Part shown: one piece after another, positions 1-12,849 of the stretch
Layout of the letters: every line of letters starts with the position of its first letter
Position numbering within the stretch: the first letter of the stretch is position 1
Origin: a virus
Direction: 5' to 3' (one strand)
DNA: 22,335 nucleotides
Virus record (IMG/VR): IMGVR_UViG_3300033388_004021
Span: 1 to 22,335 of that record
Notes under the pieces: generated by a model
Told to the model about the DNA's origin: nothing
The model's input: only the letters and a program-made list of their open reading frames with translations
The model's database searches: none
Translations under genes and position numbers: made by a program

Positions 1-19
1 TTAATATTGGAGAGTAATC

Positions 20-1950: not shown

Positions 1951-1977
1951 AAGGGGCTTAATAGCCCCTTTTCTTTT
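1951..1977 (+). terminator. Rho-independent terminator after the 1526 gene
   Basis: AAGGGGCT (1951-1958) and AGCCCCTT (1963-1970) form an 8-bp stem with a TAAT loop, followed by TTCTTTT. Confidence 0.85.
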
Positions 1978-2010
1978 GCCTAAAGAACAGCCCGGACTAT
2001 GCCCCTGCTT

Positions 2011-2076
2011 TTTAAGACTATCATCTGATGATATAAGTAAATAAACTAACCGCCCACCCTTTAAGACTATCATCTG
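2011..2076 (+). repeat. 17-base direct repeat TTTAAGACTATCATCTG
   Basis: Exact copies lie at 2011-2027 and 2060-2076, 49 bases apart. The first copy extends into a full palindrome; the second contains only the left half-site. The same 49-base spacing separates the two related repeats at 3215 and 3264. Confidence 0.85.
2019..2033 (+). promoter_or_regulatory. Candidate operator: 15-bp palindrome
   Basis: TATCATC-T-GATGATA is a perfect 7+1+7 palindrome. It fits a TATSATC-N-GATSATA consensus together with the sites at 3216-3230 and 3265-3279, all in gene-free DNA. This is the expected form for a dimeric repressor or activator site. Confidence 0.6.
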
Positions 2077-2306: not shown

Positions 2307-2335
2307 TAGACTAATTACTCTAGATGCCCTATAAT
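2307..2335 (+). promoter_or_regulatory. Sigma70-type promoter for the 2377-3064 cluster
   Basis: TAGACT (2307-2312, matching 4 of 6 of the -35 consensus), exactly 17 bases, then a perfect TATAAT (2330-2335). The -10 is followed by TAATTT, as at 1457. Transcription would begin near 2342, leaving a leader of about 35 bases. Confidence 0.65.
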
Positions 2336-2376
2336 TAATTTAAGCATTAGGAAATAAGTTAATTAAGGGGTTCAGA

Positions 2377-7617: not shown

Positions 7618-8501
7618 GAGAAGCTTTCATAGAAAAAAGATTTAATCATAGTAGCAAGGTTATCATTGAGCAAGCCAATGAGATAATCAGTGAATATCAA
7701 GAAATGGGACTAGTACTAACAGTTCGTCAGCTATATTACCAATTCGTATCCCGCGACTATATTCCTAATACGATGCGTTCGTATAAGCGTATCGTTAACA
7801 TCGTTAATGATGCTCGTTTAGCTGGGTTAATCAGTTGGCATGCTATTGAGGATAGAACGCGTAACTTAGTGAGCATGGCTCATTGGGACAAGCCTTCCGA
7901 TATCATGGAAACGGTAGTCAGCCAGTACACGACTAATAAATGGAAGGATCAAGATTCCTATATTGAAGTCTGGATAGAAAAAGAAGCTTTAACAGGTGTA
8001 ATTTCACAGATATGTAATCAAGTAGAAGTACCTTATTTTGCATGTCGCGGTTACGTTAGCCAATCAGAAGTATATAATGCAGCTAAACGTTTAAAGCGTA
8101 AATGCCTTGAAGGTAAGCAGGTTATTGTATTGCATCTAGGCGATTTAGATCCAAGTGGTATGGACATGACCAGAGATAATCAAGATCGTTTGGAGCTGCT
8201 TTCTAATGGTTCAGAAATACATGTCAAGCGCATTGCATTGAACATGGATCAGGTCCATCAATACAATCCGCCACCTAACCCAGCTAAGTTAACTGATTCA
8301 AGATGTAGTGCATACATAAAAGAATTTGGAACCTCCAGCTGGGAATTGGATGCTTTAAGTCCGGCGGTAATCCGGGACTTAATCGATGCGCATGTAGCTC
8401 TATATCGTGATGAGGAGGTATGGGCTGCGAGTACTGAAAAACAAGAAGACGGTCGCGAGAAACTGCAAGAGTGTCTTAACTTCCTAGAGGAGCAAGAATA
8501 A
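7614..8501 (+). CDS. Spo11/topoisomerase VI A-like Toprim protein
   Basis: The 295-residue protein has two parts. An N-terminal winged-helix-like region (about 25-85) contains V-R-Q-L-Y-Y (Tyr41/Tyr42), matching the spacing around the catalytic tyrosine in Spo11 and topoisomerase VI subunit A. A Toprim-type domain follows: V-W-I-E-K-E-A-L (Glu122), then R-G-Y-V-S-Q-S and the Asp177-x-Asp179 pair in L-G-D-L-D-P-S-G. The D-x-D-P-x-G ending is characteristic of the TopoVI A/Spo11 Toprim. Proteins of this kind cut DNA through a tyrosine 5' link with Mg2+ held by the Toprim acids. No B subunit is present. It is shorter than cellular TopoVI A, fitting stand-alone mini-A-type proteins of mobile elements. 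It sits just before lysis and packaging genes. Confidence 0.75.
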   Translation: MREAFIEKRFNHSSKVIIEQANEIISEYQEMGLVLTVRQLYYQFVSRDYIPNTMRSYKRIVNIVNDARLAGLISWHAIEDRTRNLVSMAHWDKPSDIMETVVSQYTTNKWKDQDSYIEVWIEKEALTGVISQICNQVEVPYFACRGYVSQSEVYNAAKRLKRKCLEGKQVIVLHLGDLDPSGMDMTRDNQDRLELLSNGSEIHVKRIALNMDQVHQYNPPPNPAKLTDSRCSAYIKEFGTSSWELDALSPAVIRDLIDAHVALYRDEEVWAASTEKQEDGREKLQECLNFLEEQE

Positions 8502-8980
8502 TGAACCATAACCAATTTAAAGACATACTTCTAATCCCGACACTCAAAAAGATTCCTAAGGGTTACACCATTGAATCAGCGGTAGCCATTTCTATGATTA
8601 TAGCGCATGAATCTCAACGCTGCAAATACATACGACAGGTAGTGGCTGGGGGCTACGGGGCAGCTTATGGCTATATTCAAATGGAAGAAACCACTTACGA
8701 TACCACTTGGCGCTATGGTGATTCTATTTGGAAAAACGCTCTGAAATTAGGTATTATTTCTAAATTAGAATACAAGCATAAAAAGAAACCTTCTATTAAT
8801 AGACTGCTAACTGATATGGAATTCAATATCTTTATGGCGCGTCAAAGACTCTTTATGAAGGCAGCAGCTATCCCGTCAACACCTCATGAAATCTCGGCTT
8901 ATTTAAAGCGGCATTGGAACTCAGCCGGCGGTGCGGCTCATATAGATTCTTACTATGAGGACTGGATGTTGTGGAAATAG
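8501..8980 (+). CDS. Lysozyme-like muralytic enzyme (endolysin or virion transglycosylase)
   Basis: The 159-residue product has a lysozyme-superfamily pattern: a helix ending I-I-A-H-E-S with Glu37 as catalytic candidate, then a Gly-rich turn and G-Y-I-Q-M-E (57-62), matching the G-x-x-Q-x-E strand of transglycosylase-like enzymes. A helical C-terminal lobe follows, with R-Q-R-L-F-M-K and W-N-S-A-G-G-A-A. It would cleave peptidoglycan glycan strands. No secretion signal is present, so export would need a holin or virion delivery. GAGGAGCAAGAATA precedes the ATG, which overlaps the previous stop. It is the last gene before the terminase promoter. Confidence 0.75.
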   Translation: MNHNQFKDILLIPTLKKIPKGYTIESAVAISMIIAHESQRCKYIRQVVAGGYGAAYGYIQMEETTYDTTWRYGDSIWKNALKLGIISKLEYKHKKKPSINRLLTDMEFNIFMARQRLFMKAAAIPSTPHEISAYLKRHWNSAGGAAHIDSYYEDWMLWK

Positions 8981-8984
8981 TTAG

Positions 8985-9013
8985 TTGACACCCAAGCTCC
9001 AAAGATGGATAAT
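8985..9013 (+). promoter_or_regulatory. Near-consensus sigma70 promoter for the packaging genes
   Basis: Perfect TTGACA (8985-8990), 17 bases, GATAAT (9008-9013, 5 of 6). Transcription should start near 9020, inside the loop of the hairpin at 8997-9038 and 25 bases before the terS start codon. Confidence 0.9.
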
Positions 9014-9038
9014 GATTCTTATTGCGCCATCTTTGGAG
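8997..9038 (+). promoter_or_regulatory. RBS-sequestering hairpin upstream of terS
   Basis: CTCCAAAGATGG (8997-9008) and CCATCTTTGGAG (9027-9038) are perfect 12-bp complements with an 18-base loop. The 3' arm contains GGAG (9035-9038), the only good ribosome binding site for the ATG at 9045. mRNA reading through from upstream would hide it; mRNA from the local promoter lacks the 5' arm and leaves it free. No T-run follows, so it is not a terminator. Confidence 0.85.
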
Positions 9039-9044
9039 ATACCC

Positions 9045-9758
9045 ATGCCAATTAAATTAGAGCACGAAGTACACCCACAACCTAATCAGTGGAAACCTGA
9101 TGAAGATAAAGCCTTAGCTACTGCTGATCCCCTAGAAAAAATAGCTAATGAAATGCACGCACGAGGTTTTGCTTCTCTATGGACCGAAACCAAACCAAAA
9201 CAAGACAGAGTCGGTATTACTTTCGATGATAAGACTAAACGCCTTTATTTACGTAAACTAGCTGTTACAGGCAGGCATGGTTATTCAGCAGCTCATGCTG
9301 GGGTTAGCAGAAGTTGCGTGAACGCGCATAAACGCCGTGATCCAGTCTTTGCTGCAGCAATCGAGGAAGCTTTAGAATATTTCCGCGACCTACTCCAAGG
9401 GGAATTAATTCGCCGCGGTATTGAAGGTTTCGAAGAGGAAGTTGTCGGTGGTAAAAACCGTAATGAGATTATCAAGGTTAGAAAATACAGCGATAAATGT
9501 ATTGAACTCTTAGGTAAGATTCATATAGCCCAACTTAATCATCAAAGTATGCGAGGTTCTGTGAATGCATCCACAGATCAAGCAGAAATGGTAGAACAAG
9601 CCCATCTGAACGGTCCTTTTGATTTAGATGATATGCCACCAGAAGAATTGGCTATGTTTCAGCAGTTATTAGAATCCCAAGCTAAACGTATGCAGATTAA
9701 AGCAACCGTAGAAGCTAAACAGCCTATAAAGGACATTAACCCTGAAGGGGATAAATAA
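9045..9758 (+). CDS. terS: Terminase small subunit
   Basis: The start is placed at 9045 because GGAG is six bases upstream; the frame extends further but only to a TTG that belongs to the promoter. The 237-residue protein has a linker-like N-terminus, a helix-turn-helix near 63-97 (R-K-L-A-V-T-G ... Y-S-A-A-H-A-G-V-S-R-S-C-V-N-A-H-K-R-R-D), a helical oligomerisation region (A-A-I-E-E-A-L-E-Y-F-R) and Y-S-D-K-C-I-E-L-L-G-K, the usual terminase small-subunit motif. It would bind the packaging site and recruit TerL. Its stop overlaps the terL start (TAATG). Confidence 0.85.
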   Translation: MPIKLEHEVHPQPNQWKPDEDKALATADPLEKIANEMHARGFASLWTETKPKQDRVGITFDDKTKRLYLRKLAVTGRHGYSAAHAGVSRSCVNAHKRRDPVFAAAIEEALEYFRDLLQGELIRRGIEGFEEEVVGGKNRNEIIKVRKYSDKCIELLGKIHIAQLNHQSMRGSVNASTDQAEMVEQAHLNGPFDLDDMPPEELAMFQQLLESQAKRMQIKATVEAKQPIKDINPEGDK

Positions 9759-11347
9759 TGGATGCAGCGCTACTCCAGTCAGCCATGTCTAATCCAGCTC
9801 GTGCATTAGAAGCTATTAAGAAGGTTCAATCAGAACGTAACTTAATAGATTTTATTCGTAACGGTTGGGAGGCACTAGAACCCGGTCAGCCTTTTGTAAC
9901 GGGTTGGGCGGTAGAAGCGACATGTGAGCATCTTCAGGCTGTAACGGAAGGTGAAATCAAACGCTTATTAATAAATGTCCCACCGGGCTGCACCAAATCA
10001 ATGACTACTTCGGTATATTGGCCGTCATGGGAATGGGGTCCAAAAAATATGCCTCATAACAGGTACATCCTAGCGGCTCATGAACAAAACCTAGCGATTC
10101 GGGATAGTGTTCGTGCACGTGATCTTATGCAAGATGAATGGTATCAAAAGAATTGGGGCGACCGATTCAGTACTAAAGGCGATGTTAATGCCAAGACCTA
10201 TTATGCGAATGACAAGACTGGTTGGCGCATGGCTTCATCAGTCGGTTCTGGTTTAACAGGTTATCGGGGGGATAGATTAATACTTGATGATCCTCATTCA
10301 ATTAAGAAAGCTGATTCTGATGCCTTCCGTGAAGACACTCTTAGATGGTTCTCTGAAACCTTACCAACACGTTTGAATAAGGCGTCCGAGTCTGCTATTG
10401 TGGTTATCATGCAGCGGGTACATGAAAGGGACGTATCAGGTCTTATTCTCGCTGAAGAACTAGGTTATGAACATCTGATGCTACCTATGGAGTACGAAGC
10501 GGAACGAGCTTGCTACTCTAAAGTAAAACCTAAGTACATACCAGGAGTAGAATTAACAAAAGTCTCTTGGGATAAACAAGAACGTGCTTGGAAACCTGAC
10601 CCTGAGAGTACCATTGAAAAGTATAAAGTAGATCCTAGAACGGAAGACGGGGAGTTATTATGGGCAGACCGTTTTCCAAGAGAATCTGTTAATGAGTTAA
10701 AGAAAGCTCTTCGCTCGTGGGGTGGCTCATATGCTGAAGCTGGCCAGTTACAGCAACGACCAGCACCTCGCGGTGGTGGTATGTTCCAGAAAACCGATTT
10801 TGGTATTGTTGATAGAGCTCCTGAGGGAGGCCGTGAGGTTCGCGGATGGGATTTAGCAGCTACTGATGCTGCATCTAGTAAAAAAGCCGCTTATACTGTT
10901 GGTGCTAAGCTAAAACTAGTGGAAGGTAATCTTTATATCTGCGATATAGATAGAAAACAAGCTAGTCCTAGTGGTGTTGAGAAAATGATAAAAGTCAATG
11001 CGGAAATGGACGGTCACCGAACCTTGCAAGATTTTCCTCAAGATCCTGGTCAAGCCGGTAAAGCCCAAAAGTTAGCCATAGCCAAATTATTACATGGTTA
11101 TACTTTTACTTTCAGTCCTGAAACTGGGTCGAAAGAGGCAAGAGCTCAACCTTTAGCAGCTCAGTGTGAGTCTGGTAATGTTTATATAGTAAGAGCATCT
11201 TGGAATGATAACTTTTTAAATGAAGCATCAATGTTTCCGAATGGTGAGTTTAAAGATCAGGTTGATGCATGCACTCGTGCGTATTCTAGTTTACTACGTA
11301 AACGTAGACGTCTAGTAGGCGCCGCGCCTAAAGTAGTTACTTCGTGA
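9758..11347 (+). CDS. terL: Terminase large subunit
   Basis: The 529-residue packaging motor has an ATPase domain with Walker A at 74-81 (V-P-P-G-C-T-K-S), Walker B L-I-L-D-D (174-178) and a coupling segment V-V-I-M-Q-R-V. The C-terminal RNase H-like nuclease domain begins with R-G-W-D-L-A-A-T-D (about 365) and has a further acid in Q-V-D-A-C-T near the end. It cuts concatemeric DNA and pumps it into proheads through the portal. Its length and domain order are normal for the family. The G-C-T-K-S loop has Cys before the Thr-Lys-Ser, a small variant of the more usual G-x-G-K-S/T. Confidence 0.95.
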   Translation: MDAALLQSAMSNPARALEAIKKVQSERNLIDFIRNGWEALEPGQPFVTGWAVEATCEHLQAVTEGEIKRLLINVPPGCTKSMTTSVYWPSWEWGPKNMPHNRYILAAHEQNLAIRDSVRARDLMQDEWYQKNWGDRFSTKGDVNAKTYYANDKTGWRMASSVGSGLTGYRGDRLILDDPHSIKKADSDAFREDTLRWFSETLPTRLNKASESAIVVIMQRVHERDVSGLILAEELGYEHLMLPMEYEAERACYSKVKPKYIPGVELTKVSWDKQERAWKPDPESTIEKYKVDPRTEDGELLWADRFPRESVNELKKALRSWGGSYAEAGQLQQRPAPRGGGMFQKTDFGIVDRAPEGGREVRGWDLAATDAASSKKAAYTVGAKLKLVEGNLYICDIDRKQASPSGVEKMIKVNAEMDGHRTLQDFPQDPGQAGKAQKLAIAKLLHGYTFTFSPETGSKEARAQPLAAQCESGNVYIVRASWNDNFLNEASMFPNGEFKDQVDACTRAYSSLLRKRRRLVGAAPKVVTS

Positions 11348-11403: not shown

Positions 11404-12849
11404 ATGAAAAATATTCTAAAGAGATTTGGTGCCGCTTTTGGTAGCCCAAGCCAGAAGGCTAGCCCAACCAAAACAAAAGGTGCACCAGGAACAGCAGTAT
11501 ATGGTGGTTATATTCTTGAAGATGAAAAGAATAGTGAATTAGCCGGTTCCAAGAAGTATCAGACGTATAGCGATATCCTAGCTAATGTTGGCATAGTAGC
11601 CGCTGGTACACGTTACTTCTTAAACTTAGTATCTAAAGCTAAGTGGAAAGTTGTCCCCGCAGATGACTCAGATGAAGCTAAGGAATATGCAGATATAATC
11701 ACATCTCAGATGTCCCGTATGGACACTTCTTGGTCTAGAGTAATCAGACGCGCGGCTATGTATCGTTTCTATGGTTTTAGTATTCAAGAATGGACTATGG
11801 AAAAGAAAGATGGTATGTTGCAGTTTGTGGATATAGCCCCACGTCCTCAAATAACAATTGAACGCTGGAACACCGATGATTACGGTAAAGTATTAGGTGT
11901 AGCCCAAAGATCCCCTCAGACAGCTCAAGAGATTTATTTACCTCGCCAAAAAATTATTTATATAGTAGATGACTCCATTAATGACTCACCAGAGGGTCTT
12001 GGCCTGTTTAGGCATATTGTTGCGAAGTCCCAAAGACTATTACGTTATGAACAATTAGAGGGTTACGGTTTCGAATCTGATCTAAGAGGCATCCCAGTTG
12101 GTAGAGCCCCATACGCTACTCTACAAGAAGGTGTCGATACTGGATTACTAACCCAAGCAGAAATGAATGATGCCTTAGCACCGATTACCTCCTTTATATC
12201 TAATCACATTAAAAATCCTGCCCTCGGTATCTTACTAGATAGTATGACTTACCAATCCGAAGACGAAGCAGCTACCCCTAGTGAGGTTTACCAATGGGAC
12301 GTAGACCTCTTAAAAGGCAGCGCTACTTCCTTCGCCGATGTAGCATTAGCCATTGAGCGTTTAAATAGAGAAATAGCCCGTATACTAGGCGTCGATGGGA
12401 TGCTCCTCGGAGAATCTGGTGGCTCTAATGCAATGAGTTCAGATAAGTCCCTAAACTTTGCTTTGATTGTGGACAGTACCCTAAGTGAACTAGCCGATAC
12501 CTATGAAAAGGATATGATCGCTAGAATGTTCGAAGTTAATGGTTGGCCAGAAGATATGAAGCCTACCTTTAATACTGAGCAAATGCAGCATCGTGATATT
12601 ACACAGATTACACAAGCCCTTAAAGATATTGCAGCGGCTGGTGGTAAGCTATCGAGAAATGATCCAGCGATCAACTCTATTCGAGAAAGGCTTGGTCTAC
12701 CAGCTCAACCTGAACTAACTGAAGAAGAATTTGCTTCTCTTCAAGGTAAGGGTGGTGCAACAACTAATGCCGGTGGAAACACTGACCCAAACGTTGATAT
12801 CAGTGAAGGTAAGAAAAATAGTCTAGACGATTCAAATCAACAGAAATAA
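11404..12849 (+). CDS. Portal protein (DUF935-like)
   Basis: The 481-residue product follows terL and has the features of DUF935-type portals: I-L-A-N-V-G-I-V-A-A-G-T-R-Y near 60, K-W-K-V-V-P-A, then F-Y-G-F-S-I-Q-E-W, and a central segment with I-A-R-I-L-G-V-D-G-M-L-L-G. It forms the dodecameric DNA channel at the head vertex. The binding site is weak (TTGGAT). The C-terminus is low complexity (Gly, Asn, Thr). Family assignment is by pattern; function is well supported by context. Confidence 0.85.
   Translation: MKNILKRFGAAFGSPSQKASPTKTKGAPGTAVYGGYILEDEKNSELAGSKKYQTYSDILANVGIVAAGTRYFLNLVSKAKWKVVPADDSDEAKEYADIITSQMSRMDTSWSRVIRRAAMYRFYGFSIQEWTMEKKDGMLQFVDIAPRPQITIERWNTDDYGKVLGVAQRSPQTAQEIYLPRQKIIYIVDDSINDSPEGLGLFRHIVAKSQRLLRYEQLEGYGFESDLRGIPVGRAPYATLQEGVDTGLLTQAEMNDALAPITSFISNHIKNPALGILLDSMTYQSEDEAATPSEVYQWDVDLLKGSATSFADVALAIERLNREIARILGVDGMLLGESGGSNAMSSDKSLNFALIVDSTLSELADTYEKDMIARMFEVNGWPEDMKPTFNTEQMQHRDITQITQALKDIAAAGGKLSRNDPAINSIRERLGLPAQPELTEEEFASLQGKGGATTNAGGNTDPNVDISEGKKNSLDDSNQQK

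Follow-up and report, generated by a model that had tools for sequence, protein, structure and literature searches.

The DNA analysed here, a 22.3-kb IMG/VR virus record (IMGVR_UViG_3300033388_004021) referred to below as the window, carries adjacent genes for the small and large terminase subunits, terS and terL, downstream of an endolysin-like gene (Table 1). The terL start codon shares one base with the terS stop codon (TAATG), an overlap that makes translational coupling of the two genes plausible. Packed into the short interval before terS is a perfect 12-bp inverted repeat, its arms 100% complementary, which is interleaved with a near-consensus promoter and with the terS Shine-Dalgarno (SD) sequence. 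The 5' arm contains the anti-SD sequence CUCC, and the GGAG that closes the 3' arm is followed, after 6 nt, by the terS ATG. A preliminary description of this DNA had reported the interleaved repeat, promoter and SD, and all are confirmed at the same coordinates; its placing of the promoter's start inside the hairpin loop also holds, as a prediction.

Table 1. Features of the terS leader and its surroundings in the window and in three relatives.
Sequence	Feature	Position	Strand	Basis or remark
Window	endolysin-like gene	8501..8980	+	phrog_3108; S0112 homologue annotated as putative endolysin
Window	σ70-type promoter, TTGACA-17-GATAAT	8985..9013	+	-35 at 8985-8990, -10 at 9008-9013; consensus scan, 11/12
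Window	hairpin 5' arm, CTCCAAAGATGG	8997..9008	+	within promoter spacer and first base of -10
Window	18-nt loop	9009..9026	+	holds predicted start; inner stem pairs -10 core with 3' half of loop (UAAUGA/UUAUUG); fold prediction
Window	predicted transcription start	about 9020	+	7 nt after -10, in hairpin loop; from consensus only
Window	hairpin 3' arm, CCATCTTTGGAG	9027..9038	+	ends in terS SD, GGAG (9035-9038)
Window	terS, terminase small subunit, 237 aa	9045..9758	+	phrog_4044, E 2e-25; start backed by alignment with relatives
Window	terL, terminase large subunit	9758..11347	+	phrog_38 and Terminase_6C
Window	second TTGACA-16..18-NATAAT site	4806	-	consensus scan
L012	promoter, TTTGCT-17 (or TTGCTA-16)-GATAAT			
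L012	hairpin 5' arm, CTTTATTGATGG	1976-1987		loop 16 nt
L012	hairpin 3' arm, CCATTAATGGAT	2004-2015		
L012	terS ATG	2023		
L100	promoter, TTGCCT-17-GATAAT			
L100	hairpin 5' arm, CTCCTTGCATGG	2002-2013		loop 34 nt
L100	hairpin 3' arm, CCATGCACGGAG	2048-2059		
L100	terS ATG	2065		
S0112	intrinsic terminator before terS, AAGGGGATGGATCCCCTT CTTTTT			
S0112	promoter-like site, TTGCCA-17-CATAAT			directly before terS

The endolysin-like gene is presumed to be the source of read-through RNA. Its stop codon and the 5' arm are separated by 16 nt, so that ribosomes terminating there are expected to do little to open the arm. No T-run follows position 9038, and we therefore rejected the hairpin as an intrinsic terminator, which would consist of a stem and then a T-run. 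No Rfam family matched the hairpin above the gathering threshold; the sole match, SAM-II, scored 17.6 bits against a threshold of 44, a chance-level value, and lay off the hairpin. Plasmid homologues were not found. A regulatory layer of this kind is overlooked by annotation that records open reading frames only.

The leader repeat is the window's sole perfect 12-bp repeat with a loop of 3-40 nt, compared with 0.057 per window in 300 dinucleotide shuffles. Sites of the form TTGACA-16..18-NATAAT occur twice on the two strands, compared with 0.093 in dinucleotide-shuffled windows, and no promoter-in-hairpin equal in strength to that of terS arose in 200 shuffles of the window. The terS hairpin was chosen by eye, so these window-only statistics are post hoc and descriptive, and the relatives provide the fair test.

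RNA folding, computed at 37 °C for a host whose growth temperature may differ, predicts opposite states for the two transcripts that could carry terS. In long RNA entering from upstream, the 12-bp stem and an inner 6-bp stem form a structure of -20.4 kcal/mol (z -5.0), and each of the twelve stem pairs has a predicted probability of about 1 whether 100, 200 or 400 nt of upstream sequence is included. RNA started at 9020 is predicted to be unstructured (z +0.5), and the probability that the SD is unpaired rises from about 0 in the long RNA to 0.41 in the short one.

Relatives were gathered by searches with TerL, TerS, portal and endolysin, and seven had a comparable terS start (L012, L100, L018, L020, L013, L019 and the Shewanella phage S0112). 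L013 and L019 were set aside for lack of a leader to compare, since their terS begins flush with the upstream reading frame or overlaps it. The nearest viral contig by TerL, L001, ends within terS and is uninformative on the leader. Among viral contigs, neither a single-sequence TerS query nor endolysin alone retrieved a relative; 80 portal-based loci included few with a close terS, and the endolysin relatives L180-L197 have no related terS nearby, except L183, which is the contig of L018.

Two relatives keep the hairpin: L012, a metagenomic contig whose TerS is 51% identical to that of the window, and L100, a Desulfocapsa-MAG contig with 80% identity in TerL and 51% in TerS. Together with the window they make up a single TerL clade (support 94/96), and all three have a common layout, in which a promoter is followed by a predicted start in the loop and by a 3' arm leading into the SD; L012 has a weak SD (GGAU) that lies next to the stem rather than within it. 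All 2.0 Mb of fetched loci were also scanned blindly for promoters that would start within a hairpin loop, the stem extending to an SD; this gave 18 matches, all three terS leaders among them. A whole-leader MAFFT alignment misaligned the L100 arms, and pairs were therefore counted on the arms only, which were aligned by structure and are to that extent biased towards it. On this count 34 of the 36 cells are standard pairs, even though 7 of the 12 arm pairs vary among the three sequences, three of them altered on both sides; shifting the arms by 1-3 columns lowers pairing to 33-56%. Differing letters with kept pairing in two relatives suggest that the hairpin is real and selected, and the comparison, which covers one clade and three sequences, points to one origin with retention through compensatory change. 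We regard it as very unlikely that the structure arose by chance or is a functionless relic shared by descent: its one origin, the small number of sequences and its selection by eye would fit such an account, but a relic would have decayed at a TerS identity of about 50%, and the variation of the arms has left their pairing in place.

The predicted effect on ribosome access is also common to the three leaders. Opening the ribosome footprint (-18 to +12) costs 20.0, 17.5 and 20.9 kcal/mol on the long RNAs of the window, L012 and L100, respectively, versus 4.9, 8.5 and 6.8 kcal/mol on the short ones, and the long-RNA cost exceeds that obtained with shuffled upstream sequence in every case (p 0.0025 each, the floor of the test). 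Hairpin z-scores in L012 and L100 are -4.5 and -5.5, and their local transcripts score -0.6 and -1.0. When the 45 nt upstream of the predicted start were allowed to interact with the RNA downstream of it, against a null of shuffled upstream sequence, the interaction energy was significant in the window (p 0.001), L012 (0.011) and L100 (0.001), and was not beyond chance in L018 (0.33), L020 (0.58) or S0112 (0.36). A stricter test on opening of the SD only, which we judged too narrow, was significant in the window alone (p 0.001; L100 0.09, L012 0.23), and the L100 short RNA is predicted to retain weak SD pairing.

A repeat that straddles a -10 element might instead be a DNA operator at which a dimeric protein regulates the terS promoter, with the RNA hairpin as a by-product. 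The arms are arranged almost symmetrically about the promoter, and a palindrome, CCATTAATGG, is common to L012 and L018. However, an operator would be expected to show conserved half-sites at a fixed spacing; the arms have been replaced in sequence between relatives and lie 18, 16 and 34 nt apart, distances that are not helical-turn steps. In L012 three G-U pairs preserve pairing of the RNA but break the symmetry of the DNA, the outer pairs coincide exactly with SD and anti-SD, and the window has no further copy of an arm with fewer than two mismatches. We consider an operator unlikely and reject it as the sole function. It need not oppose masking of the SD, since the T4 I-TevI gene has an operator and a masking hairpin at one promoter (PMC2988022).

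Outside this clade the long hairpin is absent from S0112, L018 and L020. Each of these carries a hairpin and then a T-run, about 40-80 nt ahead of terS, whereas no terminator occurs within 300 nt before terS in the window, L012 or L100. Thus wherever a gap precedes terS, in six leaders of six, transcription from upstream would meet a terminator or a masking hairpin on its way to the gene. That the two devices stand in for each other is suggestive only, with three leaders on each side and the hairpin group a single clade. S0112 resembles the window in having homologous terS-terL genes after an endolysin-like gene and a promoter-like site just before terS, as L012 and L100 do at the same place; it differs in its terminator in front and in having only short SD pairing (CCUCU/GGAGG), which is not beyond chance. 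Because packaging sites are often located within terS or close to it, the repeat could be a pac or cos site or a TerS-binding repeat. This is extremely unlikely and was rejected, because S0112, L018 and L020 have related TerS and TerL and no repeat; such a role would also leave the overlap with promoter and SD unexplained.

Masking of this kind is known from phage T4. The genes e, soc, 49 and I-TevI have helices over the SD or AUG on long RNA (PMC3014915; for I-TevI also PMC2988022), and at e and I-TevI late promoters yield transcripts that lack the helix's 5' strand (PMC3014915, PMC2988022). In gene e, promoters within the 5' strand give a well-translated RNA, and the structure is kept in related phages (PMC3014915). 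The likeness to e drawn in the preliminary description is apt in mechanism: as in e, soc and 49, the terS SD is predicted to be buried in a stable helix of the long RNA, and as in e an internal promoter, here an 11/12 match with its predicted start in the loop, would give RNA lacking the 5' strand (PMC3014915). The structure is likewise kept in L012 and L100 and is absent outside their clade. Unlike e, the gene encodes a terminase rather than a lysozyme, without sequence relation, and the promoter is of the σ70 type, whereas T4 late promoters require the phage sigma factor gp55. The homing endonuclease genes I-TevI and Aeh1 mobE also have a ribosome binding site masked on read-through RNA, which at I-TevI is freed by an internal promoter (PMC2988022, PMC3014915); they differ from terS in the class of gene, in the late promoter and, at I-TevI, in the operator. 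The masking logic of the terS leader is the same as in T4, and the gene and promoter type differ. In open-licence papers we found no terminase gene with a masked SD. In the transposase genes of IS10 and IS50, RNA started outside the element folds over the ribosome binding site and RNA from the element's own promoter does not. There the purpose, as proposed here, is insulation and not timing, although these are transposons and the fold derives from their terminal repeats.

We propose that the hairpin probably insulates terS, and the probably coupled terL, from upstream read-through. Polymerase arriving from upstream genes would copy both arms, the read-through RNA would fold with the terS SD buried, and TerS, probably with TerL, would be poorly made from it. 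Polymerase starting at the embedded promoter would begin in the loop and produce RNA that lacks the 5' arm and has an open SD. What the analysis shows directly is the sequence anatomy, the predicted folds, the layout and pairing conserved in one clade and the terminators in relatives outside it; where transcription starts, that read-through occurs, how strongly translation is affected and the coupling to terL are inferred. The masking and freeing of terS had been put forward in the preliminary description, with stem covariation among relatives as a check; the predicted folds and the compensatory changes in L012 and L100 support it, but the long stem is confined to one clade and is missing from S0112, L018 and L020.

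The same RNA logic might serve as a timed switch, as in T4, if the local promoter were activated late and packaging waited for it. T4 pairs such logic with late promoters (PMC3014915), and in S0112 a long block of replication and hypothetical genes is followed, on the same strand, by the packaging and head block, of which terS is the first gene. We nevertheless hold a timed switch to be doubtful, because the window promoter, by its near-consensus match, looks like a plain σ70 promoter that should work without a phage factor, and neither a regulator nor a late motif was identified. The earlier suggestion that packaging is coupled to the timing of the local promoter was accordingly not borne out, there being no sign of late control. 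Insulation fits better than a dedicated timer with a hairpin in one group of relatives and a terminator in the other. If this is true, a device of T4 lysozyme and homing endonuclease genes also guards a packaging motor; the phage concerned is unrelated, and its promoter is of the ordinary bacterial type. The relatives with a terminator at the same place offer a natural comparison of how phages hold terminase off during DNA replication.

Promoter-in-hairpin arrangements number four on the + strand of the window, compared with 0.95 in shuffles (P 0.015). A second one (2307-2377, TAGACT-17-TATAAT) has its -10 in the 5' arm (2326-2342) and the SD AAGGGG in the 3' arm (2355-2371), followed at 2377 by a 28-codon hydrophobic reading frame (MVLLLLAVVLGG...); its hairpin has a predicted energy of -13.5 kcal/mol (z -2.9). 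Two sites directly before genes elsewhere, 12750-12816 in S0112 (locus L222; TTGATT-16-TATACT) and 7745-7823 in a Desulfocapsa-MAG contig (L218; TTGATT-16-TATAAT), have a promoter -10 in the loop of a terminator-like hairpin with a T-run (12755-12805 and 7766-7797, respectively). Read-through RNA could terminate there, and RNA started locally would be unable to fold in this way. We tentatively suggest, as a possibility short of an even chance, that promoters in hairpin loops provide general insulation in this phage group, with interchangeable outputs, an SD-masking hairpin (terS in this clade and possibly window 2326-2371) or a terminator-like one (the S0112 and L218 sites), which would include the swap of terminator and masking hairpin at terS.

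Several further observations concern these loci. In a Planctomycetaceae MAG (L168, 2880-2918) an unrelated terminase small subunit gene, of the Sf6 type, has a strong hairpin immediately ahead of its start; the hairpin contains only a weak (8/12) promoter match and is possibly an independent case. A 15-bp SD-masking hairpin, also with a weak promoter match, precedes a peptidoglycan-binding and M15 peptidase gene in L040 (940-993), which is endolysin-like, as is T4 e. On the - strand of S0112, at about 1543, a strong hairpin (GTAATACCCTTCTGT...ATAGGAGGGTATTATG) covers the SD of an unannotated 90-codon reading frame. A small reading frame with a common KPSKKL/KPAKKL motif lies between the endolysin gene and terS in L012, L018 and L100 and is missing there in the window. 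In L100, 7 nt separate the stop codon of a small upstream reading frame from the 5' arm, so that translation there might be coupled across the hairpin. Finally, the terL genes of L100 and L001 are interrupted in frame, at the Walker A sequence VPPGCTK, by an intein-like element of about 330 residues with LAGLIDADG and Hom_end matches; the TerL of the window is without it.
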